From: a virus
Virus record (IMG/VR): IMGVR_UViG_3300013306_000027
Coordinates: 1 to 45,480 of that record
Direction: 5' to 3' (one strand)
DNA: 45,480 nt
Part shown: positions 117 through 42,922 of the stretch, in pieces
How the letters are laid out: each line of letters starts with the position of its first letter
Numbering within the stretch: position 1 is the first letter of the stretch
Notes under the pieces: generated by a model
What the model saw: the letters and a program-made list of their open reading frames with translations, nothing else
The model's database searches: none
Told to the model about the DNA's origin: nothing
Translations under genes and position numbers: made by a program

Positions 117-132
117 TTCTGGAGAAAGCAAC

Positions 133-555: not shown

Positions 556-561
556 TCTACT

Positions 562-581: not shown

Positions 582-595
582 TCGAGGAAGCTCCC

Positions 596-5611: not shown

Positions 5612-5612
5612 A

Positions 5613-6842: not shown

Positions 6843-6845
6843 ACC

Positions 6846-9026: not shown

Positions 9027-9031
9027 CGCGC

Positions 9032-9193: not shown

Positions 9194-9228
9194 GCGAACC
9201 TCCTGGGTATAACGCCCTCACTCAACTG

Positions 9229-9255
9229 AAGCCCGCCACTGAGCGGGCTTTTTTA
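9229..9255 (+). terminator. Rho-independent terminator
   Basis: An 8-bp stem (AAGCCCGC with GCGGGCTT) and a 6-base loop are followed by a run of T. It ends the ejection-protein operon before the tail fibre gene. Confidence 0.8.
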
Positions 9256-9270
9256 TTGGGATGAAAAACT

Positions 9271-10086: not shown

Positions 10087-10099
10087 AGAGGGGATTATC

Positions 10100-10435: not shown

Positions 10436-10444
10436 GGATATCTC

Positions 10445-10996: not shown

Positions 10997-11031
10997 CTTG
11001 TGCTCGGATGCGAGGTCGGCTCAGCAGGACC

Positions 11032-21200: not shown

Positions 21201-21856
21201 GGCTCAAAGGCTCTGTGCCAACGCTGCAAGCCACGTTCGAGCAGGAGTGTGCTGTAGAAAATCCATCAGCGGTGCTTCTCTCCCTAGGGCACCCGTTGCT
21301 CCGTCAAGCAGCGGCCTTCCTCAAAGAGGCGGAGGTGGTCATCGTCAAGGTTTCGGTTATGCATGAGGCTTTGCCTGTTGGCACGCATCCATTTGCGCTT
21401 TACCGCTGGTATAGGCAGGGCGTGAAGCACGATGAAGAACTGGTGCCTGTGGCTGCTGAAGCATCCATCGCAGAAGCACTTCTGGAGTTACTGCAAGGGG
21501 CAGCTGACGCGCCTAGCGTTGAGGTGCCATCGCAGCAAGTCTGGGATGGCCTGGATGGCGTCCATCACCAGCTGTGGCTGGCAAAGTCGACACAGCATTC
21601 CGAAGACAATCGGCAGCTTGTTGGCGTGCGAATTCAGAGCCTGACGGCCAGCTTTACCGCTCGCAAGGCCTTGCTGGAAGAACAGATAGGACGTGCCACG
21701 AACGACAAGATTCGTGTGATGAAGCAGGCAGAGCTAGAGCGCGCGCAAGTCGACTTTGACATACGCATCGCCGCCTTACGTCGCGCAGCCGAAAGTGGCG
21801 ACATCCGAGCCACACCAACTGTGTTCGGTATTCTGGAAGTGCGGAGGCCAGTATGA
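18281..21856 (+). CDS. SNF2-family helicase with N-terminal Swt1-type HEPN domain, 1191 aa
   Basis: Residues 1-125 form a helical domain with an R-x4-H motif (R92-H97, in VRNRWAHAP), as in Swt1-type HEPN domains, which are often RNases. A superfamily 2 SNF2/RapA-like motor follows: Walker A (DEVGVGKTIEAG, about 292), DEAH box (IVDEAHHIRN, about 411), SATPMQ (about 443), and helicase C motifs ending QRIGRIDRYGQ (about 786). The C-terminus is helical and Gln/Glu-rich. It would translocate on DNA. The start follows a GAGGA site; the stop overlaps the next start by four bases, so the pair is coupled. DISARM's DrmD is a similar-size SNF2 protein, but no DrmA/B/C genes are present. Confidence 0.88.
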   Translation: MNELLHASGAVIALWLETKLPSLSPKWWVDNVFNRLTFPQQRLVEEKRIQSLTGLDLAAILRVLDQNWTELAGAEPLPREARNWVKELQSVRNRWAHAPAGGLNSMDAYRDADTLKRFLYVINADDALLNRVEEFKQATLARMASQIQVPAASIQGSAQTTLPAESPAPAPKSAQKFSVGELLCLRSNPSAVFPVLEVLPSVEAETRYRVFENGARQIYYESQLQALDEPTESHKVLTATELSAMLSAVQLSSPSASALYSLNSGRVRFVPYQYRPIFKLIRADRPRLLVADEVGVGKTIEAGLILKELQARSDIKSVLIICPKALVAERKWELEMKRFDEHFVAFDGSLLRHCIKETHLSGEWPAQYEKAILPTSLFDGDLLFGKPGKGKSRDLGLLELDPSPKFDLVIVDEAHHIRNADTFLHQAVRYFADNAEAVVFLSATPMQLGREDLYTLLNVLRPDVIIDPASFSQMAEPNQFINTGIQACRRGSSGWTEEVREQLRSVASTTWGREVLAVNPGFQHIYDGLAEGSEDGAARIKTIQALEDLYTFSSLINRTRRRDIGEFTTRKAETVTTEFTPNQRALHDDLLSVIARIFARLHGNQNVKFMMTTVSRQAASSLYGLAPALEDILLGKLARLEAEDDGEDVEERSFDFVGQITEDIESLVERAKRLDPKDPKAEAFMQVVTDKLTMPRNKLLVFSTFRHTLHYLVGKLKAANIRFGLVHGGIADENRASLRYRFSLPKEDEDAIDVLLSSEVGCEGLDFQFCDCLINFDLPWNPMRIEQRIGRIDRYGQQSDAVGIFNLVTPGTIDAEIYDRCLSRIGVFQHAIGGNEEILGDITRELHSIAETFNLSEEERAQRLQQLSDNKIRQIEEEQRLEERQGELFGLNIAAASWEQRLAQSRNHWLEPHALSRAVASYLGRRLGKEQDFLLGDKPLKTLRLSQEARATLLEDFRKLPRSTDPMHRGWERWLKGSVPTLQATFEQECAVENPSAVLLSLGHPLLRQAAAFLKEAEVVIVKVSVMHEALPVGTHPFALYRWYRQGVKHDEELVPVAAEASIAEALLELLQGAADAPSVEVPSQQVWDGLDGVHHQLWLAKSTQHSEDNRQLVGVRIQSLTASFTARKALLEEQIGRATNDKIRVMKQAELERAQVDFDIRIAALRRAAESGDIRATPTVFGILEVRRPV

Positions 21857-24800
21857 GCGTCATTCAGACAATCGCAAGTCAACGTAAGAAGCTGCTCGAT
21901 GGCCTAGATGCCAATGAAGGCGATATCAACCTTCGCATCTTTGAGGACTTCTACCCCGACGAAGCCCACTTCATTTACGAGCTCCTACAAAACGCTGAGG
22001 ATGCTGGGGCCTCTGAGGTTTCGTTTGAACTGTTACCTCATTCCTGTGCGTTCGAACACAACGGAACTCGCCACTTCAACGAGCAAGACATTCGCGGCAT
22101 CACCGGGATCTTCAATAGCAGCAAGAAGGATAGTCCCGATAAGATTGGCAAGTTTGGGGTTGGGTTCAAGTCAGTGTTTGTATACACGGATTCGCCTGTT
22201 GTCTACTCCAAGGACTACAGCTTCAAGATTTTGAAGCTGGTTCTCCCTCAACAAGTTCCTCCCAAGCAGGGTTTGGGTGAGCGGACGCGCTTCGAGTTAC
22301 CGTTCAACAACCCCAAGAAGGATGTCGAGACTGCGTATGCCGAGGTCAAAGCTGGCCTCGAGCAGCTCTCCGAGACGACTCTTCTGTTTCTCAACAACCT
22401 TCGATACATCAAGTGGAAAGTCGGAGCCCAAGAAGGTGCGGTTCTTCGCGAGGAGCACTCGGAATCGCATGTTGAGGTGCTTAAACTTGTCGATGGCAAG
22501 GAAGTCCTCAGTTCGCACTGGCTACGTTTCAGCGCTCCAGTGCAGGACGTTACTCGCTTCTCTGCACCTGTTGACGGAGTTGAGCGCCAGAAAGTAACAG
22601 TCGCATTCGAGCTCGAATTGACCAGCGATACAAATTCCTTCGACAAGAGCAAGCCGCTTGCCAAGCAGGTTAAGATCATCTCAGCGATAAAGGGCAAGGT
22701 CTCGGTCTTCTTCCCTGCTGAAAAGGAGACATCCGGACTGCGATTCCATTTGCACGGGCCCTTTGTCCCCGAACTGAGCCGAGCCAGCATCAAAAATTCT
22801 TCGGAGAACCTTCCGCTCTTTGATCAACTGGCAGTTGTTACCGCGAAGGCTTTGCACAAAGTCAAGGAAATAGGCCTCCTGACGGGTGAGTTCCTCGCTG
22901 TGCTCCCAAACAACGATGACCCACTTCCGGAGCGTTATCAGGTCATACGCAAGGCGGTCCTAGAGGAGATGCGTAAGACCCCACTGGTGCCAACATATGG
23001 GGGGGGCTTCGCTCCGGCGATGCGCCTATGTCAGGCGCGTGCGTCGCTCAAGGCGCTCCTGCATGCAGAGGACTTGGCGTTTGTGACCGAGCGTAGAGAC
23101 GAGCCAGATTGGGCAATTGGTGCTACGCAGAGGAACAGCAATCAAGATAGGCTCTTGGCAAGCCTGGGAATACCGAGCGTGGATACCGAGGATCTCAAGA
23201 AATTCTTCGAGTCCAAGGCTCGAAGGAGCAACTATTCCTGGGATGAGTTCGAGCTGAGTCCGAGTGTCCTTAGCTGGCTCGCGACAAAGTCATTTGAATG
23301 GCTTCAATCGTTGTACGAGTTGCTACATAAGCACTGCGAAGCCCTTGGCGACTATGGCAGTCTGCGAGATGTCTATTTCGTCAAGCTCACGTCAGGAAAT
23401 TGGGGGACTGGTTCCATCGCTTACTTTCAGACGGGGCCAGTCAGCGAAACTGACCCGTATTATCGGGTGGACGACCGCATTCTTACGACTGGGATCCTGA
23501 AGGCAAAGCAGCAGGATGCAAGGCTGTTCTTGGAGCGAATTGGCGTTCGTGAACCCAATGAGGTCGACGAGATGATCCAGTTACTACGGTCTCGGTATCA
23601 GGAGAGTACATCACCTCCGAGCGATAAGGCCTACCTTGAGGACCTCGAGAGGATGATTGCCCTCCTGGAGAAGAACCCGTTTCTGAAGGGTATATTTGCG
23701 AAGGCCCGCATCTTCAAGATTGCATCATTGTCCGCGCAGTGGGCGACGGCAAGCCAAGTCTACTTGGACTCCCCATTCATGCGAACAGAACTCAAAATAT
23801 TCTACGAATTGACCGTCGACCAGAAGCAAAAGCGCTGGCCGCTGGACTCATGGTACTTGTCTTCTGGTATTCCCGCAGAAAATATTTCACGCTTTGCCGC
23901 GCAAGTTGGCTGCCAGAAGGAGTTTGACGAGCTCTACACTATAGCCAGTTGTAGGAACAACCCTAACTGGATGTACCTGTCGCAGGCAGCAGGAGCCCGC
24001 CGCTCAGGCAACTCCATTAACCATGACTTTGCCCTGACAGCTGAGGCTTTGCTGTTGTTGAATTCGAAAAAAACGGAGGCTGCGCTGTTGGTGTGGCAGG
24101 CGCTACGTCGGAGCGATACTGCATCGCCGTCCATTCTCAAGGCGCGCTACCAGTTAACCGAGAAGGGTGGTTCCCGCTATGCAGATTCGCAGCTCGTATG
24201 TGTGCTAAAGGATCTTGCATGGATCCCTCAGACAGACGGTTCTTTCGTCAAGCCAAGGGCTGCAACTGCTGCTCGCTTGCCCAAAGGCTTCGCAGTCGAT
24301 ACCGGATTCAAGTGGCTGGAAGCACTTGGGTTCGGGACGGATGACAAGAGGCGAACTGCTGACAATACTATTCGTGCTACGCACCGAGATGAGCTCGGGT
24401 TCAAGTCGGAAGAGGAATTACATCGAGCGCTAGCCTTCACCAAGCTTCCGATCGAAGAGCAGCATCGCATCTTGGACTTGGCTTCCAAGGGTAGTCCGGA
24501 GCCAGTCGAGCTTCCGGAACGGTCAGTTCGTAATCCTGAGCTTCGCCAGAGGCGTGTGGGGGAGGAGGCAAGAGAGACACCCGATAAGACTTCTGTGCAG
24601 CGGCAGCGCTCGGTGCAATTGGGGGCAGCTGAGGCTAAGTCTGCAGCAAAGGCCTACCTCGCAGACCAGTACATTAACTCCAACGGGCAGATGATTTGCC
24701 AGGCCTGTATGGGAGAGCTGCCGTTCAAGTTGCCTACGGGGGAGTACTACTTCGAGGCAGTGGAGCTAGTGGTCGACTCACCCAAGCGCTACCGTGAGAC

Positions 24801-25002
24801 ATACCTTGCACTTTGCCCAAATCACGCCGCCGCGTACCAATATGCCAACGCACAGCGAAACTCTATGGGCGAGCTCGTGGCCACGGCCGCAAGCAATGAA
24901 ATCGAGGTAGCCTTGGGCGGCTACGTGACGACTCTTTATTTCACGGAGATGCATCTGGCCGACGCCAAAGCGTGTCTGAACTGGGAAGAGAGCGAGGAAT
25001 AG
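21853..25002 (+). CDS. Sacsin-like GHKL ATPase with degenerate HNH-like C-terminus, 1049 aa
   Basis: The N-terminus is a GHKL (Hsp90/sacsin/MutL fold) ATPase: N-box YELLQNAEDAGAS (about 38-50) and G-motifs around IGKFGVGFKSVF (about 98-109). A long middle region has no known domain. Near residues 949-990 is a zinc-like site: CQAC, a YYFEAVELV strand, and LCPNHAAAY. The layout matches HNH domains, but the usual Glu-x-His-His is replaced by EAVEL, so catalysis is doubtful. It overlaps the SNF2 gene by four bases. GHKL ATPases paired with SNF2 helicases, C5-methylases and Vsr nucleases are known from restriction-type operons, which suits the neighbourhood. Confidence 0.82.
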   Translation: MSVIQTIASQRKKLLDGLDANEGDINLRIFEDFYPDEAHFIYELLQNAEDAGASEVSFELLPHSCAFEHNGTRHFNEQDIRGITGIFNSSKKDSPDKIGKFGVGFKSVFVYTDSPVVYSKDYSFKILKLVLPQQVPPKQGLGERTRFELPFNNPKKDVETAYAEVKAGLEQLSETTLLFLNNLRYIKWKVGAQEGAVLREEHSESHVEVLKLVDGKEVLSSHWLRFSAPVQDVTRFSAPVDGVERQKVTVAFELELTSDTNSFDKSKPLAKQVKIISAIKGKVSVFFPAEKETSGLRFHLHGPFVPELSRASIKNSSENLPLFDQLAVVTAKALHKVKEIGLLTGEFLAVLPNNDDPLPERYQVIRKAVLEEMRKTPLVPTYGGGFAPAMRLCQARASLKALLHAEDLAFVTERRDEPDWAIGATQRNSNQDRLLASLGIPSVDTEDLKKFFESKARRSNYSWDEFELSPSVLSWLATKSFEWLQSLYELLHKHCEALGDYGSLRDVYFVKLTSGNWGTGSIAYFQTGPVSETDPYYRVDDRILTTGILKAKQQDARLFLERIGVREPNEVDEMIQLLRSRYQESTSPPSDKAYLEDLERMIALLEKNPFLKGIFAKARIFKIASLSAQWATASQVYLDSPFMRTELKIFYELTVDQKQKRWPLDSWYLSSGIPAENISRFAAQVGCQKEFDELYTIASCRNNPNWMYLSQAAGARRSGNSINHDFALTAEALLLLNSKKTEAALLVWQALRRSDTASPSILKARYQLTEKGGSRYADSQLVCVLKDLAWIPQTDGSFVKPRAATAARLPKGFAVDTGFKWLEALGFGTDDKRRTADNTIRATHRDELGFKSEEELHRALAFTKLPIEEQHRILDLASKGSPEPVELPERSVRNPELRQRRVGEEARETPDKTSVQRQRSVQLGAAEAKSAAKAYLADQYINSNGQMICQACMGELPFKLPTGEYYFEAVELVVDSPKRYRETYLALCPNHAAAYQYANAQRNSMGELVATAASNEIEVALGGYVTTLYFTEMHLADAKACLNWEESEE

Positions 25003-25042: not shown

Positions 25043-25480
25043 TTATTCCCCATTCCCCGATGACTGGCGGATTAAGGTATATAGTCGCTCACCGGTTGCA
25101 TTGGCTTTTGCCATGGATGCTAGTTCGCATTCCCAGACAACGAATACCCTCCATCCCCTTGCTTCTAACTCTGCTCTTACAAACTCATCGCGTGCGACAT
25201 TTTTCTCGAATTTCGCTAACCAAAATGTAGTGTTGCTCTTGGGCGTCGTTGCCGTTTTGCAGCCAGTGTGGTTGTGCCAGAAGCATCCATGCACGAACAC
25301 TACGGCCTTGTATCGTGGGAACACTAGATCCGGCTTTCCAGGCAAGTTAGTAGCATGCAGCCGGTAACGAAGGCCATGCCCATGGAGGACCTTGCGTAAT
25401 GAAAGTTCGGGCTGAGTGTCCTTGCTCCTTATGCGTGACATCCTTTCTGAGCGCTCTGCAGGTGAAAGGAAATCGGTCAT
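25043..25480 (-). CDS. vsr: Very-short-patch-repair endonuclease (Vsr family), 145 aa
   Basis: The full Vsr pattern is present: MSRIRSKDTQPE near the N-terminus, D51 in GKPDLVFP, then H64 and H69 in FVHGCFWHNH, with zinc-ligand Cys/His. Vsr nicks T:G mismatches produced by deamination of 5-methylcytosine and usually accompanies a C5-methyltransferase, here the dcm-like gene of the same operon. E. coli Vsr has Thr before the first active His; here it is Val63, as in many homologues. An AGGAGG site lies 6 bases before the ATG, just after a perfect hairpin that separates it from the upstream gene. Confidence 0.92.
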   Translation of the reverse strand: MTDFLSPAERSERMSRIRSKDTQPELSLRKVLHGHGLRYRLHATNLPGKPDLVFPRYKAVVFVHGCFWHNHTGCKTATTPKSNTTFWLAKFEKNVARDEFVRAELEARGWRVFVVWECELASMAKANATGERLYTLIRQSSGNGE

Positions 25481-25492
25481 TCCAGGCCTCCT

Positions 25493-25522
25493 GCCTAGGC
25501 CCTGCTAATGCAGGGCCTAGGC
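25493..25522 (-). promoter_or_regulatory. Perfect 13-bp hairpin between the DptH-like gene and vsr
   Basis: Arms GCCTAGGCCCTGC and GCAGGGCCTAGGC pair perfectly around a TAAT loop. It lies between the stop of the DptH-like gene and the vsr ribosome site. No T-run follows on the minus strand. It could be an mRNA processing or stability element, an attenuator, or a protein-binding palindrome. Confidence 0.65.
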
Positions 25523-25527
25523 ATTGC

Positions 25528-28500
25528 TCAAGTTTGACTTGTGAGTTCGAAGAACGGTAATCCCCGCATGACCTCGCCAGCCACGTCGAATGACTTATAG
25601 AGGCAATGGTGGTTGGGCAAGGTCTTTACACGTTCCGATAGTTCGGCAAGGTCCGATGTGAAGCCCAATGCGCTAAGCTCGGCGGGAGTAGCGTTAGGAA
25701 CCTTGTGGATGAACCAGGTCAACAAAGGCTCCCTGTAGTCGGTTGCTCCAGCCTTGAAGTGTTTAAGGTACTGGGAAGCAAGGATAACGCCCGTCCCGAA
25801 TTCACGGCCCTGCAATAGCAGCTTGCGGAGCACGTCGAATTCATAGCGCATTATGTTGTCCGCTTCATCCACTAGAAGGTACGAGTCGATGGCCCGCAGT
25901 TGCGGATCGCTGCCTACAAAGGGGTGCTTGGGGGTTCGGAGCATGTTCTCGTAGAACATATTCAGCATGATAGCGACGAGCATGTTCTTGCTCTTGTCAT
26001 CCTGTCCAATGGAGTCCAGAGAGATCACCACTACACCATCGAAGAATTTATCGAAAGGAATAGTTTCTGAAGTGGACCGGGAAAATACCTCCCTGTCCAC
26101 GAGGTCGTCGATTATCGCCATCGGCGAGTCCGACTTTCCGTCAAGGATCTCTTGATACTCCCTATGGATGTCGTAGATCGTAGGTTGGTGGCCAAGCGTT
26201 TTGGCCTCCTCGTAGGCATTGCGAACTGCTCCCTTGAGCTTGCTAAGTTGCACAGGACCCATTCCCGAGTAAATCTTGTCGAGGACATCGGCAAAGAACC
26301 GGAATCTATCCAACCATGGTGCCGTAGACTCTCCCATGCCCGTAGTATCGAAGAGGTTCAGGGGCAGGTGATGGGGCTTTACTACCTTGGCTCCTGTTGC
26401 AGCGATAAAGTCCTCGCTGCTGTAGTCGCGTTTGTAATCGAAGATTAAGAATCGTGGCCTGATCCCACGGTTTTCCTGTCTGGATCTGGATATCTGCGTG
26501 ATCAAGGATTTGAGGAATTGGGTCTTGCCCGTCCCAAGGTCGCCCACCACACCGATGTTTAACTGGTTAAGCCGCGTGTCGGATATGTTTAAGGCGAGCG
26601 CTCGTGGCTCGAAGCCATCCACGGTCTTCCCTACGGACAGAATAACTCCACTACCTGGCTCTTTAGGTGTTGAGGGAGGCACCCTCACGCTTATGTCTCC
26701 TGAATACTCTCCGGTAATCGGCTGAGGTGCAATAATGTCCTCGACTAGCACTGGCTTGGCAGGTTGCTCGCCTGCCCTCTGGGCTATATCGACCTGCGAA
26801 GTGGAGGCTGCTGGAGCTTGCTTAGGGGGCAAGAGCCCCCAATCGCCCACTTTTGCGCGCACTGCTTCGTAGAACGACTGTGCATCTTTTCCGGCTACGA
26901 TACGACCTGCGTCCTGGCTTGAGATGACAATTGTTTCATCATAGTTGTCGCCATCACGATCATGCGGACCACTCTGGGTTGAGCCGTCAATTACGATAAG
27001 TCGGCCCCTTGAATCTAAGCTGGGCCTCGAGTCAGGGTCGAGTATTGCTGCGGCGATGCGTTCGTGGTAGGTGGCCCAGCGGCTAGCCTGTCCCGCGACT
27101 GCCTGATGCTGGCTGTAGACACGTAAGCCAAAGCCAACCATCGAAAGTAGTAGGTGCTGATAGGCTAGGCGCCATACCACAGATCTACTAGCGCGCTCCT
27201 CGATGGCTTGCAAAAGTGTGGAGAGTGCCCTTGCTTGGGAAAGGGCTTCGACGGCATCGTTGGCCCCGAACACGCTACCCTGGCGGCACTTGACCTCTAT
27301 AGGAGTAAGGTGAAGATGGACTCCATCGCTACAGGCCCGCACGCCGACGACAAGTAAGTCGGGACGTGACAGTGAGGTGTCCTTGCGCTCCTTGCCGAGG
27401 GAGCGGGCAAGGTCTGCAAGATAACCTCTGAAGGGATCAACGGGGACGATTATTGCAATCGTGCAATCGTCTTGCGAACCTGCGAGCACTGGCAGCAGGC
27501 TGTTCTGGTTTCCTTCTACACGGAACTGGTCCTGAAGGAGTCGGACCGCGAGGAAGAGACCAAGGTCGCCTGTGGCACCTGTATCGTCCCCAGAGAGGCC
27601 ACGCACAGTGGGAATACCCCTTCTGGCGACTTCCAGTAGGATTTGCTCGACCTTGTCGTCTTCTAGATCCTCGCACTCGGGAAGAGGCTTCAAAACCCGG
27701 CGCAAGGCGTCACGATCGGCTTGCTTGACCTGCGATAGGAGGTAATAGCCGCTAGTATCGCCTGCGCGATGGGAGTACGAGGGGAGGTCGTAGTCCCAAA
27801 GGTAGGTACCTTTGATCCAGCCACCCAAAAAGCAAGCAGGATCGATTGCAGAAGATGAGACTGCAACGTAACCGGCGCTGTTTTCCTCAAGCATGTCGGA
27901 TACTGCATGGACACTAGGCGAGAACTGTAGGCCAACCTTTCCGTCCCTAAGCTTTTCTACCATGAGCATGCATGCTGAAACCTTGTCGGCGAACGGTTCG
28001 CCGGAGGGAGGCATCTGAAGTCCTTGACGGGACTCGCTCAGGAAGGAACCTTGAAGCTGGCGCCTTACCCGGTGCCTGATGAGGCCACCAGCCCCCATGG
28101 GTGAGAGCATGCCGACTTCTTTGGACTCAGGTTGTGCTGAGTTCATTTGGGCAATGATACCTAGATCAGGTTTCGCACCGATGGGTTGCTTGTCATACCA
28201 GCGGACGTGGTTATCGGTGTCCTCGGAGAGGTTGGCGATCGTAGCCTGATCCGGTCTTCCGGAAGTCCTAGTATCGAACACCTCCAAAATCCGCACGCCG
28301 ACACTTTGTTTAGGGGTGTCCGTGTCCCCGTTACCGAACCGCTTGGTGCACCAGTGGGCCAAGCCTTCGTTGCAGGCATCAGTGCTGCCACCTGCGCTGG
28401 ACACTACCAGACTGACGATGGGCTTTGCTGCCAGAAGGTTGGTGACATCGTCGAGAGCGCGAGAAACCTGTGCTGGACTAAACCCGCTTGAGATGCCACC

Positions 28501-30990
28501 TACCGTTAGCCCGAAGGTGTTGTCAAACGGGGGACGGCGGGTCCGATCGGGTAACAAGCCCAGGCGAGAGCCATTCCATAGGACGGACCAGTAGTCGGAG
28601 CTACACTCGACTGACAGGAAGTCGATCCGGTCTATGCCACTTGGAGACTGCAATGAGATTGTCAGTAGGTCGGGGACGCAATCAGGGTCAAGGATGCTCG
28701 CAGCAGGGCAGGGGCAGGGGGAGTCGCCTTCTACCTCGTCCCGCAGCACTTTCTGGGCGAGACAATGCCATGCAAGACGCAACGGATGTAGGGGGGAAAG
28801 GATGATGGCGTCTGGAGCTCTACTCAGGGTACGTCCGTCCGGTTCTAGCGAGCAGACCGCCACGGTATCTATCCAGCAAGCGATGTCCGAGTCTGCCTCA
28901 AGCCAAGACATGTATGCCTCAAGGTAGGTTTCGACGAGTATGCGGAACCCCTCGTCGTCTGATAGCCAGGCTCCTAATTGCGCGGACTCGAGGAGTCCCG
29001 ATTGGTCATCGCTGCCTCGTATATATTTCGCAATCTCCAGGCGGGCTTCCACGAATCCCTTTGGCGGTTGGAAGCTCATTGCATCGGGGCGCGGGTCGTG
29101 CAGGAAGCGGCCGTGCGAGAGTATTGGACCATGAGGGGCATCCCAGTCAGGAGGAGCCCATCTGGATGCGTAGTCGTCTGCTATCACCAGAGGCCTGAAC
29201 GACTTGGCTACGTTCTGCTCTTCGAGTATCCATGACTGCAAACTTGAGGATCGGGCATTCCGGTCGAGATGGACGACGGCCTTGGTGTCGAATTTCTCGA
29301 GATGTCGGCGGTTCAGCTTGATTAGACGCTCGAATTCGCTCCGGCAGCCTTCCTCCTTTGCCTCATCGCAAGCAAGGTAGACTCTGCAGACTTGAGGGTT
29401 GGCCTCGGCCGGTATCTTGAAGGTTATGTCCAACTGATATTTGCCGTCGGCCTCCACTTCCAGCAGGTACTCGTCTTCTCCAACCAGACGAGCCTCGATG
29501 GATTGCCGCTGCTCCTCTAGCTCAGTAGCATCGTCCGGCATGCCCTCCACGTTGCCAATGATTGCGCCTGGCGATAGGTGGAGACGCAACTCATATCGCC
29601 CCGAGCCAGGCAGCGATAGGGATGTCTCCCAGACCGGCGTCGAAGTGTTCTTGCGGGGCTTCTTCGGAGGTGACAGTTTTGTCGCTAACCTACAGGTTAC
29701 AAGTATCCCGGGTTTCCAGTTTATTAGGGAAATAACCCGGATACTTGCGGGCTTGCAGCCCTCAGAGGTGACCTTATAGGTTATGGGGGTCTTGTGTGCG
29801 GGTGGGAGTAGGTCTGTGTGCTGGGTAACTCCGTTGGAGGCTGCTTGCAATGGCGTTGGCGCCTTGCCATAGGAGCCTCCAGCTAGCAGGAACGCTTCTG
29901 GTTGGCTGTCATCGCTCGTAGAGATGGCTAGCTCGACCATGTCACGTACTACCGCTGGTAAGCCCTTGGTCGCTGGAATAACACTATTCGTGCACCGGAT
30001 GCTGATCTCTCCAACCACTTCATCGGGCTCATCGGCAAGCAGATCCGTCCACTGCTCTATAGTGAGCAATTTCCACCAGGATGGCGGAGGAGTGAGCTCA
30101 AGGGCCTTTCCAGGCAGATAGAAGGCCTCAGTAGCGCGTTCAAAGGCAGTAGGGATGTCGCAACTCGCTTGGAGGTGGACGAGTAACTCCCGCAGAGCTT
30201 GGGCTATATCGTCAGGGGCGCTTTGTGCAAGGCGTTCGATGCCAGTCTTGAAGCCATCTGCAAGCTCATCGGCAATTTTTCCTAGGACTGAGAGCTGGGC
30301 CTTCGACGAGATCCCATCTCCTTTCATCGGCGGGAGACCGCATGCCAGGGCAAGCGCCTTTCCAGATGAGAGGCCTTGATGGGAGGTCTCGATCGAATAG
30401 ATGCGAGATAGCATGCGCCATGAGGCACTGTGGTTCGCTTGATCAGGATCCACTTCGTCGATGGAGTCTGCGGCTGCGCGCACTAATTGCTTGGCATCGT
30501 CTCTTTGCGAATCCTCTATACCTGCAACGAGCAACGCCTTATTAACGGCTTGCTGCACAAAACCGTCTTCCCACCATTTGTCGAAATTTGCGCTCATGCC
30601 GAACACGTCGCTTGAGGACTCAATCGAGAGGTTATTGTGCTGGCCTGCAGGAACTAGGGCGACGAAGCTGGAGTTGTTTGGATCATTTCGTACATCCAGT
30701 AAGTGGTCGTTATCACATTTGCCGGACTCACCTATTCGGAGCTTATGGCCTTTTAGGTGGCCATCTGGGCACTGGAGCAGTACTGGTAGAGTCACCAAAC
30801 TACCGTCTATTCCAGACATAACTTGAATCCCCCCGTCGAGAACGAGCTCGTCGTAGACTTGTTCGAGTATTTCAAGGGGGGGGCCGCGGAAGATTAGCCG
30901 GTATTCAAATTTGTTACCGCTAAGCCCTTGTGTGGCGCCCACAGCTTTTTCACGGACAATTGATGCAAGCCACTGTGCAAGTCTATTCAT
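25528..30990 (-). CDS. DptH-like giant protein: PD-(D/E)XK-like nuclease segment plus HerA/FtsK-type ATPase, 1820 aa
   Basis: The start at 30990 (MNRLAQWLAS) overlaps the upstream stop by eight bases. The N-terminal 1,150 residues have no clear domain. Around residues 1208-1234, RPDLLVVGV followed by LTPIEVKCRQG makes a PD...ExK nuclease pattern, then a helix with AVEALSQARAL. Residues about 1480-1820 form a HerA/FtsK-type ATPase: Walker A GDLGTGKTQ (about 1482), FLIFDYKRDY, Walker B YLLVDEADN (about 1703), then LASQYLKHF. Great length with a C-terminal HerA-like ATPase as the last gene of a three-gene set is the DptH plan of phosphorothioate-dependent restriction. No dnd genes are present. 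Alternative: an unrelated HerA-nuclease fusion. Confidence 0.75.
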   Translation of the reverse strand: MNRLAQWLASIVREKAVGATQGLSGNKFEYRLIFRGPPLEILEQVYDELVLDGGIQVMSGIDGSLVTLPVLLQCPDGHLKGHKLRIGESGKCDNDHLLDVRNDPNNSSFVALVPAGQHNNLSIESSSDVFGMSANFDKWWEDGFVQQAVNKALLVAGIEDSQRDDAKQLVRAAADSIDEVDPDQANHSASWRMLSRIYSIETSHQGLSSGKALALACGLPPMKGDGISSKAQLSVLGKIADELADGFKTGIERLAQSAPDDIAQALRELLVHLQASCDIPTAFERATEAFYLPGKALELTPPPSWWKLLTIEQWTDLLADEPDEVVGEISIRCTNSVIPATKGLPAVVRDMVELAISTSDDSQPEAFLLAGGSYGKAPTPLQAASNGVTQHTDLLPPAHKTPITYKVTSEGCKPASIRVISLINWKPGILVTCRLATKLSPPKKPRKNTSTPVWETSLSLPGSGRYELRLHLSPGAIIGNVEGMPDDATELEEQRQSIEARLVGEDEYLLEVEADGKYQLDITFKIPAEANPQVCRVYLACDEAKEEGCRSEFERLIKLNRRHLEKFDTKAVVHLDRNARSSSLQSWILEEQNVAKSFRPLVIADDYASRWAPPDWDAPHGPILSHGRFLHDPRPDAMSFQPPKGFVEARLEIAKYIRGSDDQSGLLESAQLGAWLSDDEGFRILVETYLEAYMSWLEADSDIACWIDTVAVCSLEPDGRTLSRAPDAIILSPLHPLRLAWHCLAQKVLRDEVEGDSPCPCPAASILDPDCVPDLLTISLQSPSGIDRIDFLSVECSSDYWSVLWNGSRLGLLPDRTRRPPFDNTFGLTVGGISSGFSPAQVSRALDDVTNLLAAKPIVSLVVSSAGGSTDACNEGLAHWCTKRFGNGDTDTPKQSVGVRILEVFDTRTSGRPDQATIANLSEDTDNHVRWYDKQPIGAKPDLGIIAQMNSAQPESKEVGMLSPMGAGGLIRHRVRRQLQGSFLSESRQGLQMPPSGEPFADKVSACMLMVEKLRDGKVGLQFSPSVHAVSDMLEENSAGYVAVSSSAIDPACFLGGWIKGTYLWDYDLPSYSHRAGDTSGYYLLSQVKQADRDALRRVLKPLPECEDLEDDKVEQILLEVARRGIPTVRGLSGDDTGATGDLGLFLAVRLLQDQFRVEGNQNSLLPVLAGSQDDCTIAIIVPVDPFRGYLADLARSLGKERKDTSLSRPDLLVVGVRACSDGVHLHLTPIEVKCRQGSVFGANDAVEALSQARALSTLLQAIEERASRSVVWRLAYQHLLLSMVGFGLRVYSQHQAVAGQASRWATYHERIAAAILDPDSRPSLDSRGRLIVIDGSTQSGPHDRDGDNYDETIVISSQDAGRIVAGKDAQSFYEAVRAKVGDWGLLPPKQAPAASTSQVDIAQRAGEQPAKPVLVEDIIAPQPITGEYSGDISVRVPPSTPKEPGSGVILSVGKTVDGFEPRALALNISDTRLNQLNIGVVGDLGTGKTQFLKSLITQISRSRQENRGIRPRFLIFDYKRDYSSEDFIAATGAKVVKPHHLPLNLFDTTGMGESTAPWLDRFRFFADVLDKIYSGMGPVQLSKLKGAVRNAYEEAKTLGHQPTIYDIHREYQEILDGKSDSPMAIIDDLVDREVFSRSTSETIPFDKFFDGVVVISLDSIGQDDKSKNMLVAIMLNMFYENMLRTPKHPFVGSDPQLRAIDSYLLVDEADNIMRYEFDVLRKLLLQGREFGTGVILASQYLKHFKAGATDYREPLLTWFIHKVPNATPAELSALGFTSDLAELSERVKTLPNHHCLYKSFDVAGEVMRGLPFFELTSQT

Positions 30991-32524
30991 GATCGCTTCC
31001 CTGGGTGACTTGGCTTGTGTGGAAAGGAGGCAACAGCAGCATGCCACTTTCGGCGTCTGGGCTATCTAGCACGAGACCAAGCATCCTTAGTTGGTGCCCC
31101 AGGTCGTTCCTGGCAATGTCGTGTTTGTCTACGGCAACGCCGTAGGCCTCGAGGTGCAGTCCTAGTCTATGGATTGAGCGAGGTCCAACCATCCCAGCGA
31201 GTGCGCAGTGGACCAAGGCAAGAACGGCTACAGGTCCAAGGGAGACGATCCATGGGCTGGAGGGGCTGCTGCCTTTCTTTTTGAGGATGTATCCCTGATC
31301 GTACCCTCTGAGCAGCGGGACTGCGGCCTGGCGTTGCCCTAATGCATGCCTCGCGAACTCCAGCAAATTGGAGCCTATGCCTTTCCTGCATAGCAAAGCG
31401 CGCGCCTCTTGCTCGCGTATGTCGGTAATGGTTTCCAGGGTGCCCGCGTTGACGAGTGCATCTCGATGCTTCTGGATATGCTGGCAAAGCGCAGCAATAC
31501 CTTTGCTTGATGAAAGGTCGCCCTCGTAGGGCGCTCCTATTTGCTTGAGTGACCAAAGGAGTGCATTGATCCCTAATCTGGCATTCAGGTAGCTGGAGAC
31601 CTTGTCCTTGATACCCTGAAGGGCTTTCCCTCCATATGCCATGTACTGGGGGGCTTCCGGGAAAATTGCATTCCTTGCCTCTTGCTCGTTAGGAGTCACG
31701 CCATTGGTAAGTGCTGCCAATAGACAGCTCCAGATCCTCGCGTGGACGTCACAGAGCCATGTCACATGGGAAACTGCTCCTAGGCGCAACACTGCCTCTA
31801 GCAAGCTGGTCCATTGCCGGCGAGTCATGGCGTCTTTCGCCTGCATGATGGCCTGCAGGTCTTTGGTGAATCGTCTGGAGGGCAGGAACTGGACTTCCAG
31901 AAAGTCGGAAGCTTCGAGTGTTGCCGTTTCCTCATCAGGGATCGGCACTAGAGCCCAGGTGGTTGCCCCTTGATTCCACGACGATGTCTCTTGCTCGAGC
32001 CAGCGGGCGAAAACGTCGTCTTCGTCGTTGACACTCAGAGCTTCAAATAGGCTTTTCCAAAGGAGCTGTGCTGATTCCTGATCCTTTGAGCCTAGGCAGA
32101 CCATGCGGCGTATCAAGCTGCCGGCTGGCCAGGAGTTGCTGCTTAGCCGAGCGGAGCCGGAGAAGAGCGCTGCTCCTGGTACTAGGGGGGTGACCTGCAA
32201 GAACCGCTTGGAGGATTGGTTGGGGAGCTTTGGGCTCTCCAGTATTCCATGAAGCACGGCATTCCAGGCCTCAACGCCTACTACCGCACCGGTGGGGGGC
32301 AGCTGGCTTTTTTCCCGAAGTTTTTGGATGCGCTTGTCCAAGTCGCGCCCCGCCTGTGGCACGCAGCCCTCGCTTGCTGATGAAAAACCTATAGTCCGGT
32401 AGAGCGAGGCAAGTAGGACCTCCGAGCTCGCATATTCAGGTGCCGGGCTTATTGCTAGGGCCGATTTCTGGTAGCTACTGTGGGAGAACCGCCAGGGGGC
32501 CTGCTTGAAGTCCATAAGGCTCAT
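30983..32524 (-). CDS. Unknown restriction-module protein in DptG position, 513 aa
   Basis: The start at 32524 overlaps the DptF-like stop by four bases (ATGA), and the 3' end overlaps the DptH-like start by eight, so the three proteins are made in coupled amounts. The protein is helical with a Trp-containing core (FARWLEQETSSWNQGATTWALVP, about 175-200) and a mixed C-terminal region (PWIVSLGPVAVLALVHCAL, about 425-445). No catalytic motif is visible. Its place between an AAA+ ATPase and a giant HerA protein matches DptG of DptFGH systems. That identity is by position only. Confidence 0.65.
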   Translation of the reverse strand: MSLMDFKQAPWRFSHSSYQKSALAISPAPEYASSEVLLASLYRTIGFSSASEGCVPQAGRDLDKRIQKLREKSQLPPTGAVVGVEAWNAVLHGILESPKLPNQSSKRFLQVTPLVPGAALFSGSARLSSNSWPAGSLIRRMVCLGSKDQESAQLLWKSLFEALSVNDEDDVFARWLEQETSSWNQGATTWALVPIPDEETATLEASDFLEVQFLPSRRFTKDLQAIMQAKDAMTRRQWTSLLEAVLRLGAVSHVTWLCDVHARIWSCLLAALTNGVTPNEQEARNAIFPEAPQYMAYGGKALQGIKDKVSSYLNARLGINALLWSLKQIGAPYEGDLSSSKGIAALCQHIQKHRDALVNAGTLETITDIREQEARALLCRKGIGSNLLEFARHALGQRQAAVPLLRGYDQGYILKKKGSSPSSPWIVSLGPVAVLALVHCALAGMVGPRSIHRLGLHLEAYGVAVDKHDIARNDLGHQLRMLGLVLDSPDAESGMLLLPPFHTSQVTQGSDHE

Positions 32525-34668
32525 ACGACATCCTCCTTGCTCGCGACGAAGCCATTCCATGAACGACCTATTACAGTGCCATCTGCTCCAACACGGATTT
32601 TGGCATCGTCCAACAGATTCTTGTCTCGGACGATGGGCCCTGATAACCGAGCTTTCGTTGTATCCAGCAGGGCCAAGACCGTGCGCGGGAGAGATGCAGG
32701 CGATAGCCCTCTTTCCAGTTCCTTAACAGCCTTGAATAAGTCATAGGTCAGGGGAATTGGCTGGGCAGATTGCCCTTGGCCTACCCCGAGGTAGCAGATT
32801 GGCGGGCGGGGGCGTCCTGCAGTGTCCTGAGGTAGCATCTTGACCGTCCGCAGCGGGACGACCAATGTCGCCTGGCGTTGCCTTGGTGGAAGTGGCTGTC
32901 CAAAGGTGGTGGTTAGCGATACCTCGAATTCCTTGCCAGTATTCAGCAGGTCCTTCACTTGTTTTACGACTTCAAATAGGTGTTGGTGCTTGTCGTTATC
33001 CTCAACGACCTGCTGGAAAGCCTGCAGAATTTGGAAATCTGCGACTACAGCCGTTCGGGTACATATGCTGCGGCGAACTAGGCGGCAAGCAAAGTCGCGG
33101 AGGATGTGTTGGACACGGCTGGCCGCTACAGGCCTCCTGCGTCGAATAATTGGCAAGGAAAGCATGGCGTCCGCATTGGAAAGTCGCTTGAGTAGCTCAA
33201 GCTCGTTTTGCGATAGCACTTGATACTTGCGGATGAACTCTATGCCGCCGGCGAGGGAGCGGCTAAAGCGAATGTCGAGGTCGCCGAGGCCAATCGTGCT
33301 GCGGCTACTTACCGCGACCTCGCTGTCGGGGCTTGCGAATGCTGGGTCTAAGGTGTCGACGAGGCCTTCCAACAAAGGCGCAATTGTCGCTGGAAGGTAA
33401 TGTGTCTTGCGCTCTGCAAGGAAATGCACAAGGCCCATCAGAGTTCGCCCTTCCTCGGCATCTAGCTCCTTCTCGAGGCCGAGGTCCTTGATGTCACTGC
33501 GGAGCGAGGTAGCCACATCCTTGTCCCATCGATGGAATAACGCATGCTGGTAGCCTGATGTCGCCAGGTGGAAAATCGCCGTGAGTGTTTGCCTGCTGTG
33601 CTTTTTTGTTCCCGCTGCCTTCTGGTCAAGTTCGATGAGATTCTCTGCCCATTGGCAGGGCGTTGATTGGTGTGTGTGCCTTGCCGGGTCGTGGACTACA
33701 GGATGGTGCCCGGCCAGCAAGTACGAGGTAAGGGAGAAAAGGTCACGGAAGCTCCATCGCTTACCGCTAGCTAGCTCGTACCAGCGCAATATCTTCAGTA
33801 GCGCTGTCCGTTGCTCGTCTCGGGCTAGGATGGCCTGGCTGGTACAGAAGGGGCATTTCTCGCCCGCTGGACATGCTCCCTTTGCAAGCCACATTTCGGA
33901 TGCAGTGGCTTGGCCGAGGAGTATTTCCGCTGGTGCAGAAGTTACGTCGTCAGGCTTGACTAGAAGGGACTCGGCATCCATTGGCCAGACTGCAATCGAT
34001 GGAAAACCTTCGAGTGGCCAGCATGAGGGGGCGTCGTACGCCAGGCTCACAGCCCTGGTAACAGCTTCGAGGATGGCGCGCGGCTTTTCCAGATTGTTGT
34101 CGATAGCATGGATCAGCGCATCATCGAGGACGCCACGGTTAACGCAGCATAGATAAGCTTGGGATGGTGGCCCATCCAGCAGCCTGTCGAGCTCTTCGAT
34201 GAGGAGTGCTGGTGCAGTGCTCCCCTCGTGACCAGCTGTCGAAGTGGCGTCCTGAACAATATCCAAGCTCAGACTACTGTCGAATCTTGAAAGGCTTCCA
34301 GCATCGACGCTTACTATTCGTGGGACTTTGAAGCCGGCAGATGGATGGAACGCCTTTGACAGCTCTTCGATGAGCCGTCCCCCACAGCCTAGGTTCGCAT
34401 CTAGCCAATGGATAGTGGACTCGATCGCTTCAGTCTTTCCATTACCTGGTCCACCAACCAGAAGGATAATCCTCGGGATGCTAGTACTGTCTGCTGGAAG
34501 CTTTTCGGCCCAGGCTTGGAGCCGGGCCAGAAGGCTTGTCCTTAGTAATAGTTTGTTAGGCTGGCCGCTTTCGTTGTCTAAAAGCCGCTTCACTCCCCCC
34601 GAGTGATGGCCGGCCCAGTCGACAAGGGCTGCGGGGTAGCGCGCCCCTTCCATTTGGGTGCTATCCAT
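32521..34668 (-). CDS. DptF-like AAA+ ATPase, 715 aa
   Basis: The protein has a Walker A at residues 72-79 (GGPGNGKT) and a Walker B-type LLIEELDRLL (about 153-163). Near residue 275 is a short Cys cluster (ACPAGEKCPFC) that could bind zinc. The rest is helical with no nuclease motif. The gene starts 20 bases after the methyltransferase stop, with AGGAG and GAGGGG sites before the ATG, and overlaps the next gene. An AAA+ ATPase leading a three-gene set that ends in a giant HerA/nuclease protein is the DptF plan. It may sense DNA or drive assembly. It could also be a related ATPase from a BREX-like or other restriction system. Confidence 0.72.
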   Translation of the reverse strand: MDSTQMEGARYPAALVDWAGHHSGGVKRLLDNESGQPNKLLLRTSLLARLQAWAEKLPADSTSIPRIILLVGGPGNGKTEAIESTIHWLDANLGCGGRLIEELSKAFHPSAGFKVPRIVSVDAGSLSRFDSSLSLDIVQDATSTAGHEGSTAPALLIEELDRLLDGPPSQAYLCCVNRGVLDDALIHAIDNNLEKPRAILEAVTRAVSLAYDAPSCWPLEGFPSIAVWPMDAESLLVKPDDVTSAPAEILLGQATASEMWLAKGACPAGEKCPFCTSQAILARDEQRTALLKILRWYELASGKRWSFRDLFSLTSYLLAGHHPVVHDPARHTHQSTPCQWAENLIELDQKAAGTKKHSRQTLTAIFHLATSGYQHALFHRWDKDVATSLRSDIKDLGLEKELDAEEGRTLMGLVHFLAERKTHYLPATIAPLLEGLVDTLDPAFASPDSEVAVSSRSTIGLGDLDIRFSRSLAGGIEFIRKYQVLSQNELELLKRLSNADAMLSLPIIRRRRPVAASRVQHILRDFACRLVRRSICTRTAVVADFQILQAFQQVVEDNDKHQHLFEVVKQVKDLLNTGKEFEVSLTTTFGQPLPPRQRQATLVVPLRTVKMLPQDTAGRPRPPICYLGVGQGQSAQPIPLTYDLFKAVKELERGLSPASLPRTVLALLDTTKARLSGPIVRDKNLLDDAKIRVGADGTVIGRSWNGFVASKEDVV

Positions 34669-34688
34669 TCCCCTCGACTCCTATGTTT

Positions 34689-36371
34689 TCAAGCTATGGC
34701 TAAGATTTCTTGCTCTGCTTCATTGACTGTTTGTTGACTAGTGCCCGCCATGGCCTCTTCCAGTACCGACCTGATTGCTAGGCCAATGGCTCTTGCAAGA
34801 TAAGGAGGGACAGCGTTGCCCACCTGCGTATAGCGCGGGCATTCCTTGGTCCGTTGGCTACCACCCGTGGTGAATTTGCCGCGGAACTGGAACCAGTCGG
34901 GAAACGACTGCAGCCGTGCAGATTCTCGGACGGTCAATATCCTGGGCTCGCTGTAATGGAGCACGTCGTCGGGCAACGTCGTTATTGTAGGTGCTGGGTT
35001 GCCCGCCCGCATTAGGCAGATGCGGTGCTTCTTGAGACCATATTTCTCCCTCTGAGCCAAGTTCATCACCACACCCTTGGCGCACTCAGGGTCCTGAATG
35101 ATCTTCATGAACCGCTCTCTGATCTCAGGTTTGTGTTTTGCTAGGCGTACGCTGTCCATGGAACCGTCGCCCCCCTGATGCATGAGGGTTTGGTAATGTG
35201 TCCGAGGACCTGCATAGGCGAGCTCTTCGAAGCCGGTGCGAGAAGAGGGGTCAGTGCATGGTCTGGTCCCTACGTGCTCAACTTCCAGATCAGAAATGGC
35301 GTCCCAAGCGCTGACCATATTTGGAAGGCCAAGCTCTTGCAGTTGCTTAACCCTAGACTCCTCTAGCAGCTCGAAGGCTCTGGTGGCGCCTCCACGAAGA
35401 TGACGAGCAAGATCCTTGCGGACCCCTATTACGATTAGGCGTGGGCGCTTTTGGGGAACTCCGAAAAGTGAGGAATCCAATATTCGACCGAGGACTTGAT
35501 AGCCAACTCTGTCCAAGCTTTCGACAAGCTTGTCGTAGTAGGACTGGGGCTTCAGTTGGATGCCAAGGTCTTTCCAAGGTTTGGCATGCGCGACCTTCAT
35601 GCCTGGTACGTTTTCCAGCACAAGAGCCGCTGGTTGAATGGCTTTGACCATTTCCACGTACTTCTCGAACAGTTTGTTTCGCGGGTCGGATTCCAGTCGC
35701 TTTCCAGCGAAGCTGAATCCTTGGCAGGGAGGACCTCCTGCAAGAACATGCACCTTGCCCTTGAGCTTGGAAAGCTCAAGTGGATGTTGCTCGAGAATTT
35801 CGTCGATACCCCAGGCCTTTCTCTCCAGCCAAGAAGGCCAGGCGAACTGCGGCACGGGCACGTCACGTCCTTCGAGCAGGTTCGCCGACAGCGTGGAGAA
35901 GGCCATTTTGTCGCGCTCGACGGCAAAAACACCATTGAGTCCTGCGAGCGAAAGACCAAGCGAGAGGCCTCCACAGCCCGCAAAAAGATCTGCAAACATC
36001 AAAGGTTGCCCGTGGGCGGGTAGCGGGGGGAGGGTCTCGATATTTTTCATGGGCTCCTGCCCGGATATGGTCATGTTCTGGGTAGGGAGCGTCTCGCGAA
36101 GCCCTTGGCTATCGCCTAAATAGGCAGCCTGAAGGTGGTATTTTTTCACCACCGATGCTTGAGGCTTACCCGGCAAGCTTTCTAGAGGTAGCTCGATAGG
36201 CGTCGAGGGGGCAATAGTGATGGATAATGGATTGACCCGCAAGCAAACGCTATTGCTGGGCTTGTCTGGGTGCTGGCTTGGTTTGAGATAGCAGGTTTTA
36301 CTTATGTTGTTGAATTCATCTAGAAATATTGCATGGGTTAAGTCCGGGGCGTCGCTTGGTGGTACCCGCAT
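34689..36371 (-). CDS. dcm: DNA (cytosine-5-)-methyltransferase with N-terminal extension, 560 aa
   Basis: All key C5-methyltransferase motifs are seen: motif I FAGCGGLSLG (about 130-139), motif IV GGPPCQGFS with nucleophile C216, motif VI ENVPG (about 253), motif VIII QKRPRLI (about 311), and C-terminal TQVGNAVPP. It methylates cytosine at C5 in a target sequence I cannot predict. About 120 residues before motif I have no recognisable domain; an internal ATG at 36050 with AGGAG close by is an alternative start for a shorter form. An AAGGAG site precedes the ATG at 36371. It is the first gene of the operon with the DptFGH-like genes and vsr. Confidence 0.93.
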   Translation of the reverse strand: MRVPPSDAPDLTHAIFLDEFNNISKTCYLKPSQHPDKPSNSVCLRVNPLSITIAPSTPIELPLESLPGKPQASVVKKYHLQAAYLGDSQGLRETLPTQNMTISGQEPMKNIETLPPLPAHGQPLMFADLFAGCGGLSLGLSLAGLNGVFAVERDKMAFSTLSANLLEGRDVPVPQFAWPSWLERKAWGIDEILEQHPLELSKLKGKVHVLAGGPPCQGFSFAGKRLESDPRNKLFEKYVEMVKAIQPAALVLENVPGMKVAHAKPWKDLGIQLKPQSYYDKLVESLDRVGYQVLGRILDSSLFGVPQKRPRLIVIGVRKDLARHLRGGATRAFELLEESRVKQLQELGLPNMVSAWDAISDLEVEHVGTRPCTDPSSRTGFEELAYAGPRTHYQTLMHQGGDGSMDSVRLAKHKPEIRERFMKIIQDPECAKGVVMNLAQREKYGLKKHRICLMRAGNPAPTITTLPDDVLHYSEPRILTVRESARLQSFPDWFQFRGKFTTGGSQRTKECPRYTQVGNAVPPYLARAIGLAIRSVLEEAMAGTSQQTVNEAEQEILAIA

Positions 36372-36716
36372 GGTTGAGCTCCTTCAGCCGGTTTGAAAAC
36401 CGAGCAATCTCTAATAAGGTGGCATGAGCTAGTGATCTAAAGCTGTCGAAAGCAACTCATTTCGCCCTGTCCACTCTGGCAGTCGTAGTTCGGCCACCCT
36501 TCTGCAGTTGCTGCTAGCGTCTGTCCCTGACTAAAGGATCTGGAATTAGCGGGACAGGGCTCAACTCGATGATAGGGAGCGATTATCTAGTTTTGGCATA
36601 GTTGAACTCTTATTAGGTCAGCCCTGATGCTGGCCTAGGCAGACGCCAACCAAGGGAGGGTGTCGAAGAGTAAGCAGTTAGGTTCAGCTGCCTTGGGAGG
36701 CATGGTTTGGGTTGGA
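36372..36716. other. Intergenic region before the methyltransferase operon
   Basis: These 345 bases separate the minus-strand methyltransferase operon from a plus-strand SOS-type unit. No gene can be supported. An inverted repeat CTGTCCC/GGGACAG (36521-36527 and 36551-36557) could be a control site. The promoter of the operon should lie here, but I cannot place it with confidence. Confidence 0.4.
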
Positions 36717-41979: not shown

Positions 41980-42922
41980 CGTGGATAGAGGTGCTGTTAC
42001 CGCACCAGATTCGTTGACATCGAAAACTGGAGTGGGTTCGAATGAACGCACATTAGCAGCGGCTTACTTTGCATTACCTCCTCCAGTTGCGGGTGCAACT
42101 CCTAGGAAGAAGTTCAAATTTCTTGCGTACAAAGGTGATGATGTAATTAGTGCGTTGAAGGATCTGTTTCATAAGAAGTGTGCATATTGCGAGTCTGACT
42201 TTGTTGCCTCCGGCCCCGCGGATATTGAACATTACCGCCCTAAGGGAGCTGTTCAGGAAGAAAAAACGCACTCTGGTTACTGGTGGTTGGCTAGTGATTG
42301 GACAAATCTTCTGTACAGTTGTATTGACTGTAATCGTAGACGACGCCATAGGGTCTATGCACCAGGTATGGCGTTGACCGCGATCGCTACCGCAACAATT
42401 AGATCTATTGGCAAAAAAAATTCATTTGCAGTTAATAAGGTTCGAGCATTAAAGTCGGGGGACTGCCTCGACTCAGAGGATCCGCTATTAATTGACCCAA
42501 CGCGTAGAGATCCGACTCAGCACCTGCGCTGGGTTTTTGACTTTTCAGTTACCCCTGATCTGTGTCCAGCCCTGGTTCAGCCGGTCAGCCATGGAAGCGT
42601 AAAAGATATATACGGCGTCGAGACAATTTCCGCACTCGCATTGAACAGACAAGGCTTGGTGGAGCAGAGAACTAAGCATCTTTTAGATTTAAGGGTTTTG
42701 CTGCGATATATTCAGGATGATATTGAGGCGGCTTTGTCGGAAAGCGGTCAAAATAGATCCCGGAGCATCGCTAGGGCAGTAGGTAAACTGGATGATTTGA
42801 AACGCAAGACTGCTGCAACTGAATGCTATTCTGAGATGACTAAAGCTTGGTTTATCGAAGCCGAACGATATCTAGAAAACTACTATCAGCAGCGGCTTGA
42901 AGAAATTTTAGCTGGTGAGTAA
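41972..42922 (+). CDS. Second PtuB-type HNH nuclease, 316 aa
   Basis: The HNH domain lies near residues 68-122: C70/C73 in KCAYCESDF, H87 in DIEHYRPKG and CIDC at 117-120. It is parallel in sequence to the HNH part of the preceding fusion (KCAYCESD, then HxRPK). The rest is helical with a basic C-terminal region. The ATG overlaps the upstream stop by eight bases, so both proteins are co-translated. It would supply a second nuclease subunit to the Septu-like complex. PtuB of Septu and of retron-associated pairs is the closest known relative by motif. Confidence 0.82.
   Translation: MRNVDRGAVTAPDSLTSKTGVGSNERTLAAAYFALPPPVAGATPRKKFKFLAYKGDDVISALKDLFHKKCAYCESDFVASGPADIEHYRPKGAVQEEKTHSGYWWLASDWTNLLYSCIDCNRRRRHRVYAPGMALTAIATATIRSIGKKNSFAVNKVRALKSGDCLDSEDPLLIDPTRRDPTQHLRWVFDFSVTPDLCPALVQPVSHGSVKDIYGVETISALALNRQGLVEQRTKHLLDLRVLLRYIQDDIEAALSESGQNRSRSIARAVGKLDDLKRKTAATECYSEMTKAWFIEAERYLENYYQQRLEEILAGE

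Follow-up and report, generated by a model that had tools for sequence, protein, structure and literature searches.

DndFGH (DptFGH) and SspFGH, the closest described relatives of the locus reported here, are known only in association with phosphorothioate (PT) marks; both attack DNA that lacks their PT mark (PMC8092258, PMC11662687), and how they discriminate self from non-self is unresolved. SspFGH damages unmarked DNA indiscriminately, and hosts that lose the mark are harmed (PMC8092258), while DndFGH has been described as "lacking an inbuilt modification module" (PMC10853773). DndF is described with a P-loop, an Asn-type Walker B, a zinc insert, an augmented lid and an alpha+beta domain, and DndH with an N-terminal SWI2/SNF2-like P-loop, TRDs, an inactive DAM and, within the N-terminal half, a pair of beta-sandwiches (PMC10853773).

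In the present work, we describe five genes that appear to form an FGH-type restriction-modification module whose self mark is 5-methylcytosine (5mC), a reading inferred from sequence to which we assign a probability of roughly 0.7. The genes lie in IMG/VR record IMGVR_UViG_3300013306_000027 (45,480 nt, classed as a virus), the whole of which is referred to below as the window. If the reading is correct, a sister complex operates with the commonest kind of base mark, and the FGH machine is not a PT reader by nature. Since 5mC is easily installed, mapped and removed, the locus would also offer a tractable route to the study of FGH complexes. The features of the operon are as follows.

36054-36412, minus strand: non-coding leader 5' of the MTase gene (DNA conservation; no coding pattern over 36054-36371)
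34689-36053, minus strand: C5-cytosine DNA methyltransferase (MTase), 454 aa (Pfam DNA_methylase, 4e-55)
32521-34668, minus strand: F, P-loop NTPase subunit, 715 aa (motifs and weak colinear profile matches)
30983-32524, minus strand: G, DndG-fold subunit, 513 aa (AlphaFold2 model against 7exx)
25528-30990, minus strand: H, giant translocase-nuclease by prediction, 1820 aa (PADLOC DndH, 8.9e-72, to the C-terminal ATPase)
29359-30018, minus strand: two tandem Ig-like beta-sandwiches of H, residues ~325-544 (AlphaFold2 fragment and structure searches)
26956-27498, minus strand: PD-(D/E)XK nuclease of H (RPDLLVVG...PIEVKC; invariant D1211, E1232 and K1234)
25546-26655, minus strand: HerA/FtsK ATPase of H (Walker A GDLGTGKT, Walker B LLVDEAD and sensor Gln ASQY intact)
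25043-25480, minus strand: Vsr T:G mismatch endonuclease, 145 aa (NCBIfam TIGR00632, 1.8e-45)

According to the open reading frame list and homologue-supported starts, the five genes run MTase-F-G-H-vsr, with 20 nt between MTase and F, a 4-nt overlap of F with G and an 8-nt overlap of G with H. G is listed as an open reading frame of 525 aa and H with a first start at 31047, but the likely start of G (32524) gives 513 aa and many homologues of H begin at 30990, giving 1820 aa; these likely starts reproduce the spacings of a preliminary description made from the sequence alone, whose claim of five minus-strand genes in one unit thus held in both order and spacing. Its claim that the MTase extends to 36371 failed. 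The frame does stay open to that position, but most homologues begin near 36053, and codons 1–106 (36054-36371) lack a surplus of third-position changes when the window is compared with three Pseudomonas relatives: against the relative L093, the rates at the three codon positions are 0.14/0.13/0.13 in the first 106 codons and 0.06/0.04/0.28 in the rest. The MTase gene is therefore placed at 34689-36053. The DNA match of the leader to the Pseudomonas islands L092 and L093 (82-87% identity) extends to 36412, and the ~360 nt of 36054-36412 may be a control region of the MTase gene. In the great majority of 43 related loci, F overlaps G and G overlaps H by a short stretch, most often 4 or 8 nt; MTase and F usually stand 2-47 nt apart, and H and vsr 3-55 nt. 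This conserved spacing indicates a conserved operon rather than a chance row of open reading frames.

The two flanking enzymes are readily identified. The MTase carries the motifs PPCQG, ENV and QxRxR and is labelled type II by PADLOC; its target specificity could not be predicted, as the search returned only distant C5-MTases. The vsr gene holds the same position in most related loci and is carried by 42 of 49 complete loci. MTase and vsr genes commonly occur together, and C5-MTase and Vsr share one operon in known systems such as Dcm-Vsr and the Neisseria type II systems. The pairing and the PADLOC label could also be explained by a conventional type II C5 restriction-modification operon that includes Vsr and in which the unknown proteins are unrelated passengers. 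We regard this alternative as all but excluded: F, G and H are conserved, co-evolving and joined by short overlaps, with a DndG fold in one and a DptH-like nuclease and ATPase in another, and the operon holds no type II endonuclease gene, nor any nuclease gene beyond the F-G-H effector and Vsr. Unlike in the Dcm-Vsr and Neisseria systems, the effector here would be an ATP-dependent FGH complex rather than a site-specific endonuclease.

The assignment of H rests on sequence. Pfam and NCBIfam models identified a HerA/TrwB-type ATPase in the giant protein, which aligns with the sequence of 7es4, a crystal structure of DptH (E 4.6e-66), and with a collection of DptH sequences (hhalign probability 100%, E 4e-44). 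Just N-terminal of it, and colinear with it as in DptH, lies a region with a profile match to the DptH REase (E 7e-6). In the divergent H of L093, the match to the PADLOC DndH model spans the REase region and the ATPase (model positions 1122-1715), and the catalytic D, E and K, Walker A, the sensor Gln and the Walker B core LLVDEA are retained down to ~31% identity. H thus carries a DptH-like ATPase and a PD-(D/E)XK REase, as inferred from these matches and motifs. The N-terminal ~1150 aa show only weak similarity to DndH/DptH; as to the SWI2/SNF2-like P-loop, TRDs and inactive DAM of DndH, the one sign is a block around SPLHPLRLAWH that gave a weak colinear DptH match (E 0.002). A model of residues 205-1395 was of moderate quality (pTM 0.39, with low confidence in the middle region) and placed tandem Ig-like sandwiches at positions 121-340 of the fragment, with moderate confidence; this is a likeness to the two beta-sandwiches of DndH. 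The structure searches with this fragment were filled by Ig-like domains, and the TRD/inactive-methylase and REase parts lay outside the result.

For G, sequence methods were uninformative: no homologue was found among solved structures, and profile comparison was also blank, including against SspG. The relationship is visible only by structure. An AlphaFold2 model built from 41 sequences (pTM 0.86) has as its best structural match 7exx, deposited as "The structure of DndG" (368 of 440 residues aligned at Z 14.1 and 12% identity), with the runner-up at Z 3.3 only; 7exx was absent from the top 50 rows of a Foldseek search with the same model. The predicted structure of G therefore shows the DndG fold, which in DndG is a triple wHTH fold, and a role in DNA binding or target recognition is likely, although no functional data support it.

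F is the weakest of the three assignments. Its motifs comprise a Walker A (GGPGNGKT), a CCVNRG motif in which Asn replaces the Walker B acid, and a CPFC zinc insert, all of which are retained in homologues down to 32-35% identity and are of the kind described for DndF. Profile comparison with DptF gave colinear but weak, low-probability matches at both ends (hhalign, E 0.0025 and 0.006), and that with SspF a weak match (E 0.013). With nothing beyond these motifs and weak matches, F can be called a DptF-like subunit only tentatively. The claim that the trio follows the plan of DptF-DptG-DptH consequently held, by structure for G, by sequence for the REase and ATPase of H, and by motifs and weak profiles alone for F.

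Taken together with a three-gene F-G-H order, short overlaps, a P-loop F, a G of ~450-510 aa and a giant H, these features align the trio with DndFGH/DptFGH. It differs in that 5mC made by a co-operonic C5-MTase apparently serves as the self mark, the PT genes are missing, F and G are undetected by any DptF or DptG model, and H is detected only C-terminally. Likewise, SspABCD-SspFGH shares a P-loop F, a G of ~510 aa and an H of ~1800 aa that ends in a HerA/FtsK-type ATPase, but its mark is a single-stranded phosphorothioate made by SspBCD, and the window trio matches no PADLOC SspF, SspG or SspH model, whereas a true Ssp locus (L086) matches all three over nearly their full length. The latter served as a positive control and came from a genome search with the SspH model that was otherwise swamped by FtsK. 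Because the curated F and G models fail and the PT association is absent, we do not file the trio under DndFGH or SspFGH; it most likely stands beside them as a separate lineage, a third FGH-type module. F and G have no match above threshold among Pfam, NCBIfam or PADLOC models (F has a single NCBIfam match, far below the cut-off), so existing defence-annotation tools miss the system, and the locus would, if our reading is true, add a restriction system that current models do not call.

The gene set is widely distributed. Scanning genomes with H yielded 43 loci, in Pseudomonas, Stutzerimonas, Halomonas, Massilia, Cupriavidus, Bordetella, Rhizobium, Mesorhizobium, Sphingomonas, Paracoccus and other genera, and plasmid records contributed four additional loci. 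In many genera of Pseudomonadota, the genes follow the same standard order, MTase-F-G-H-vsr. To avoid the bias of searching with H, a genome search with a G profile was added; it found G in 5 of 349 Pseudomonas species and 1 of 397 other Pseudomonadota species, and in all four loci that it newly revealed (L068, L091, L092 and L093) the MTase gene lies beside F. A C5-MTase gene is present in 49 of 49 complete F-G-H loci, the window included (the copy in L043, a MAG, is frameshifted), leaving no complete locus without one. The preliminary description would have been refuted by a match of the trio to a family already described with a C5-MTase, or by homologous operons that usually lack the MTase; neither was found. 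On the gene side, Dnd modification is missing from nearly all hosts: of 43 host genomes, 40 showed no match to DndC and 1 had a match above the cut-off. A direct search found no DndC in the window record, and no Dnd modification family appeared among the scanned window proteins, so that the claimed absence of dndA-E genes held as far as these two checks reach. Conversely, six classical dptFGH loci (L048, L049 and L064-L067) have neither a C5-MTase nor Vsr.

F, G and H vary together in pairwise identity (r = 0.98), as expected of a complex whose subunits co-evolve as a unit, although MTase identities correlate with those of H at only 0.52. The MTase is exchanged. The FGH of L013 is 91% identical to that of L025, but its MTase is 33% identical, on the opposite strand and downstream of H; the MTases of L004 and L017 are Dcm-like, those of L011 and of an alphaproteobacterial group are different again, and in L045 the C5-MTase gene is located downstream of H, so that loci without the usual MTase (L004, L017, L013 and L045) have another C5-MTase nearby. 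The reverse exchange is seen in L092 and L093, where the MTase is 80-88% identical to that of the window and the F-G-H proteins only 31-35%. At the DNA level, the MTase gene and leader match the window at 82-87%, genes beyond at 72-77% and vsr at 70-74%, while F-G-H is unmatched; the edge of the match falls at the first codons of F, and the other flank of L093 also matches the window, at 75% over the end of a sacsin-like gene. Such swaps in both directions show that MTase and FGH are recombining modules, yet FGH without a C5-MTase was never found here. We therefore consider it likely that the coupling between them runs through the mark rather than through a fixed protein partnership. Among FGH blocks that co-diverge with the MTase across four swaps, the best window was H 1081-1110 (P = 0.033), which is marginal, and no FGH segment convincingly tracks MTase type.

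The same exchanges are open to another interpretation, namely that FGH acts against invaders as a standalone complex, by sensing nucleotides of the phage or DNA in replication, the MTase and Vsr being a separate travelling cassette with a role in regulation, anti-restriction or addiction. Several points favour it. Sensing of nucleotides or replicating DNA has already been proposed for DndFGH, which in many cases is uncoupled from the genes for its modification (PMC10853773); MTase and FGH are swapped independently of one another and, as also counts against our own reading, are not matched at the protein level; and, likewise against our reading, an SRA domain or another known reader of 5mC could be recognised in none of the three subunits. 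In addition, a same-family MTase, 71-72% identical, adjoins GHKL ATPase and response-regulator-like genes in L105 (G1032, 2167-7157), and further members of the family, of 44-46% identity, have the same kind of neighbours in L106-L108, so the presence of the MTase alone is no proof that FGH depends on it. These last loci recall the HEF_HK/Response_reg_2 (paraMORC-like) systems (PMC8011034), which apparently use the same C5-MTase lineage, often with vsr, but whose partner is a GHKL ATPase and a response-regulator-like protein rather than FGH; one modification module is probably common to different effector systems. We nevertheless judge a standalone FGH unlikely. An incidental neighbour would sometimes be lost, but none of the 49 loci lacks a C5-MTase, even where an unrelated enzyme has replaced the usual one, and the spacing of a few bases between MTase and F points to joint expression.

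By analogy with SspFGH and DndFGH, which attack unmarked DNA, the constant C5-MTase most probably supplies a protective mark. In the preferred reading, a 5mC-marked restriction module, the MTase would mark cytosines at target sites on host DNA; F would act as a nucleotide-binding sensor or regulator of the FGH complex, G would supply DNA binding, and H would be a HerA/FtsK-like translocase with a PD-(D/E)XK nuclease. The complex would scan or pump DNA and nick or cut it unless 5mC is met, such that phage or plasmid DNA without methylation is destroyed, and Vsr would initiate T:G mismatch repair after deamination of 5mC, lowering the mutation cost. The role of Vsr in repairing mismatches that arise from methylation is retained from the preliminary description, the identity of Vsr being confirmed. 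Its proposal that FGH reads 5mC as the self mark is supported but is still an inference: complex formation, restriction activity and protection by 5mC are all inferred, the last by analogy and without functional data.

The opposite polarity, in which FGH attacks 5mC-containing DNA or is switched on by 5mC, as with SspE or type IV enzymes, draws some support from the PT-activated effectors of related systems, of which SspE requires the PT mark (PMC8092258). It is very unlikely, as the host chromosome would itself bear the trigger, and the architectural relatives SspFGH and DndFGH attack unmarked DNA (PMC8092258). A bolder form of the protective-mark reading holds that FGH complexes are general mark-checking restriction machines and that this branch reads 5mC itself, or its density, instead of one methylated sequence; we put these two clauses together at well below an even bet. 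Were they true, any C5-MTase could serve as the self-marking partner, and cassettes would swap freely between islands. The natural MTase swaps (L013 against L025, and L093 against the window) already provide the material for deciding whether it is a sequence or the mark itself that is read.

Among other described systems, the CxC-DndE systems with cytosine methylases (PMC10853773) are similar in that cytosine methylation apparently replaces phosphorothioation in Dnd-type machinery, but the methylase there replaces PT in a DndDE module with other nucleases, whereas here it is tied to FGH. BREX and DISARM were rejected, as PADLOC matched no PglZ, BrxC or DrmAB among the five genes, and a DrmD-like neighbour (18281-21856) belongs to a separate plus-strand unit. 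No description of this gene set was found in the open-access literature searched, and to that extent the claim that it is undescribed held; most subscription papers and preprints were outside the reach of the search, as were the supplements of PMC10853773, in which the lineage may possibly be listed.

Despite the viral classing of the record, the operon sits in an integrative island beside a podovirus-like module and not among phage genes. Positions 1-11000 of the window encode podovirus-like virion and DNA-ejection proteins and an endolysin, a module that likely explains why the contig was classed as viral. The region from 12 to 45 kb resembles an integrative island of bacterial origin; a phage-type integrase lies at 43852-45207, and the other content includes YfjJ-type and DUF932/RadC genes. 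IMG/VR scans with H and G returned no viral relatives, which indicates that the operon is not typical phage cargo. A phage record, MT836369.1 (a 10.8-kb "Bacteriophage sp." from human faeces), does encode an H relative of 55.5% identity at 5036-10468, and may be a misclassified bacterial contig.

Some 3.7 kb beyond the MTase start, a Septu pair occupies 39754-42922 on the plus strand, with PtuA (PADLOC, 6.9e-246) overlapping PtuB (4.1e-85) by 8 nt; its presence marks the island as a defence island. On the other side, two overlapping plus-strand genes at 18281-25002 converge on the operon and encode a HEPN_Swt1-SNF2 helicase (a relative of the DISARM protein DrmD) and a sacsin-type GHKL ATPase (a TmtA relative). 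They were rejected as part of the system, being missing from the relatives' loci examined (a sacsin relative does lie beside L093), and could conceivably form an uncharacterised two-gene defence system of their own. Finally, two Vibrio plasmids (L050, 8312-11323; L051, 8111-11047) carry the DptH-type HerA domain in proteins of ~1000 aa beside mobI on conjugative elements, an arrangement that fits the idea of HerA capture.
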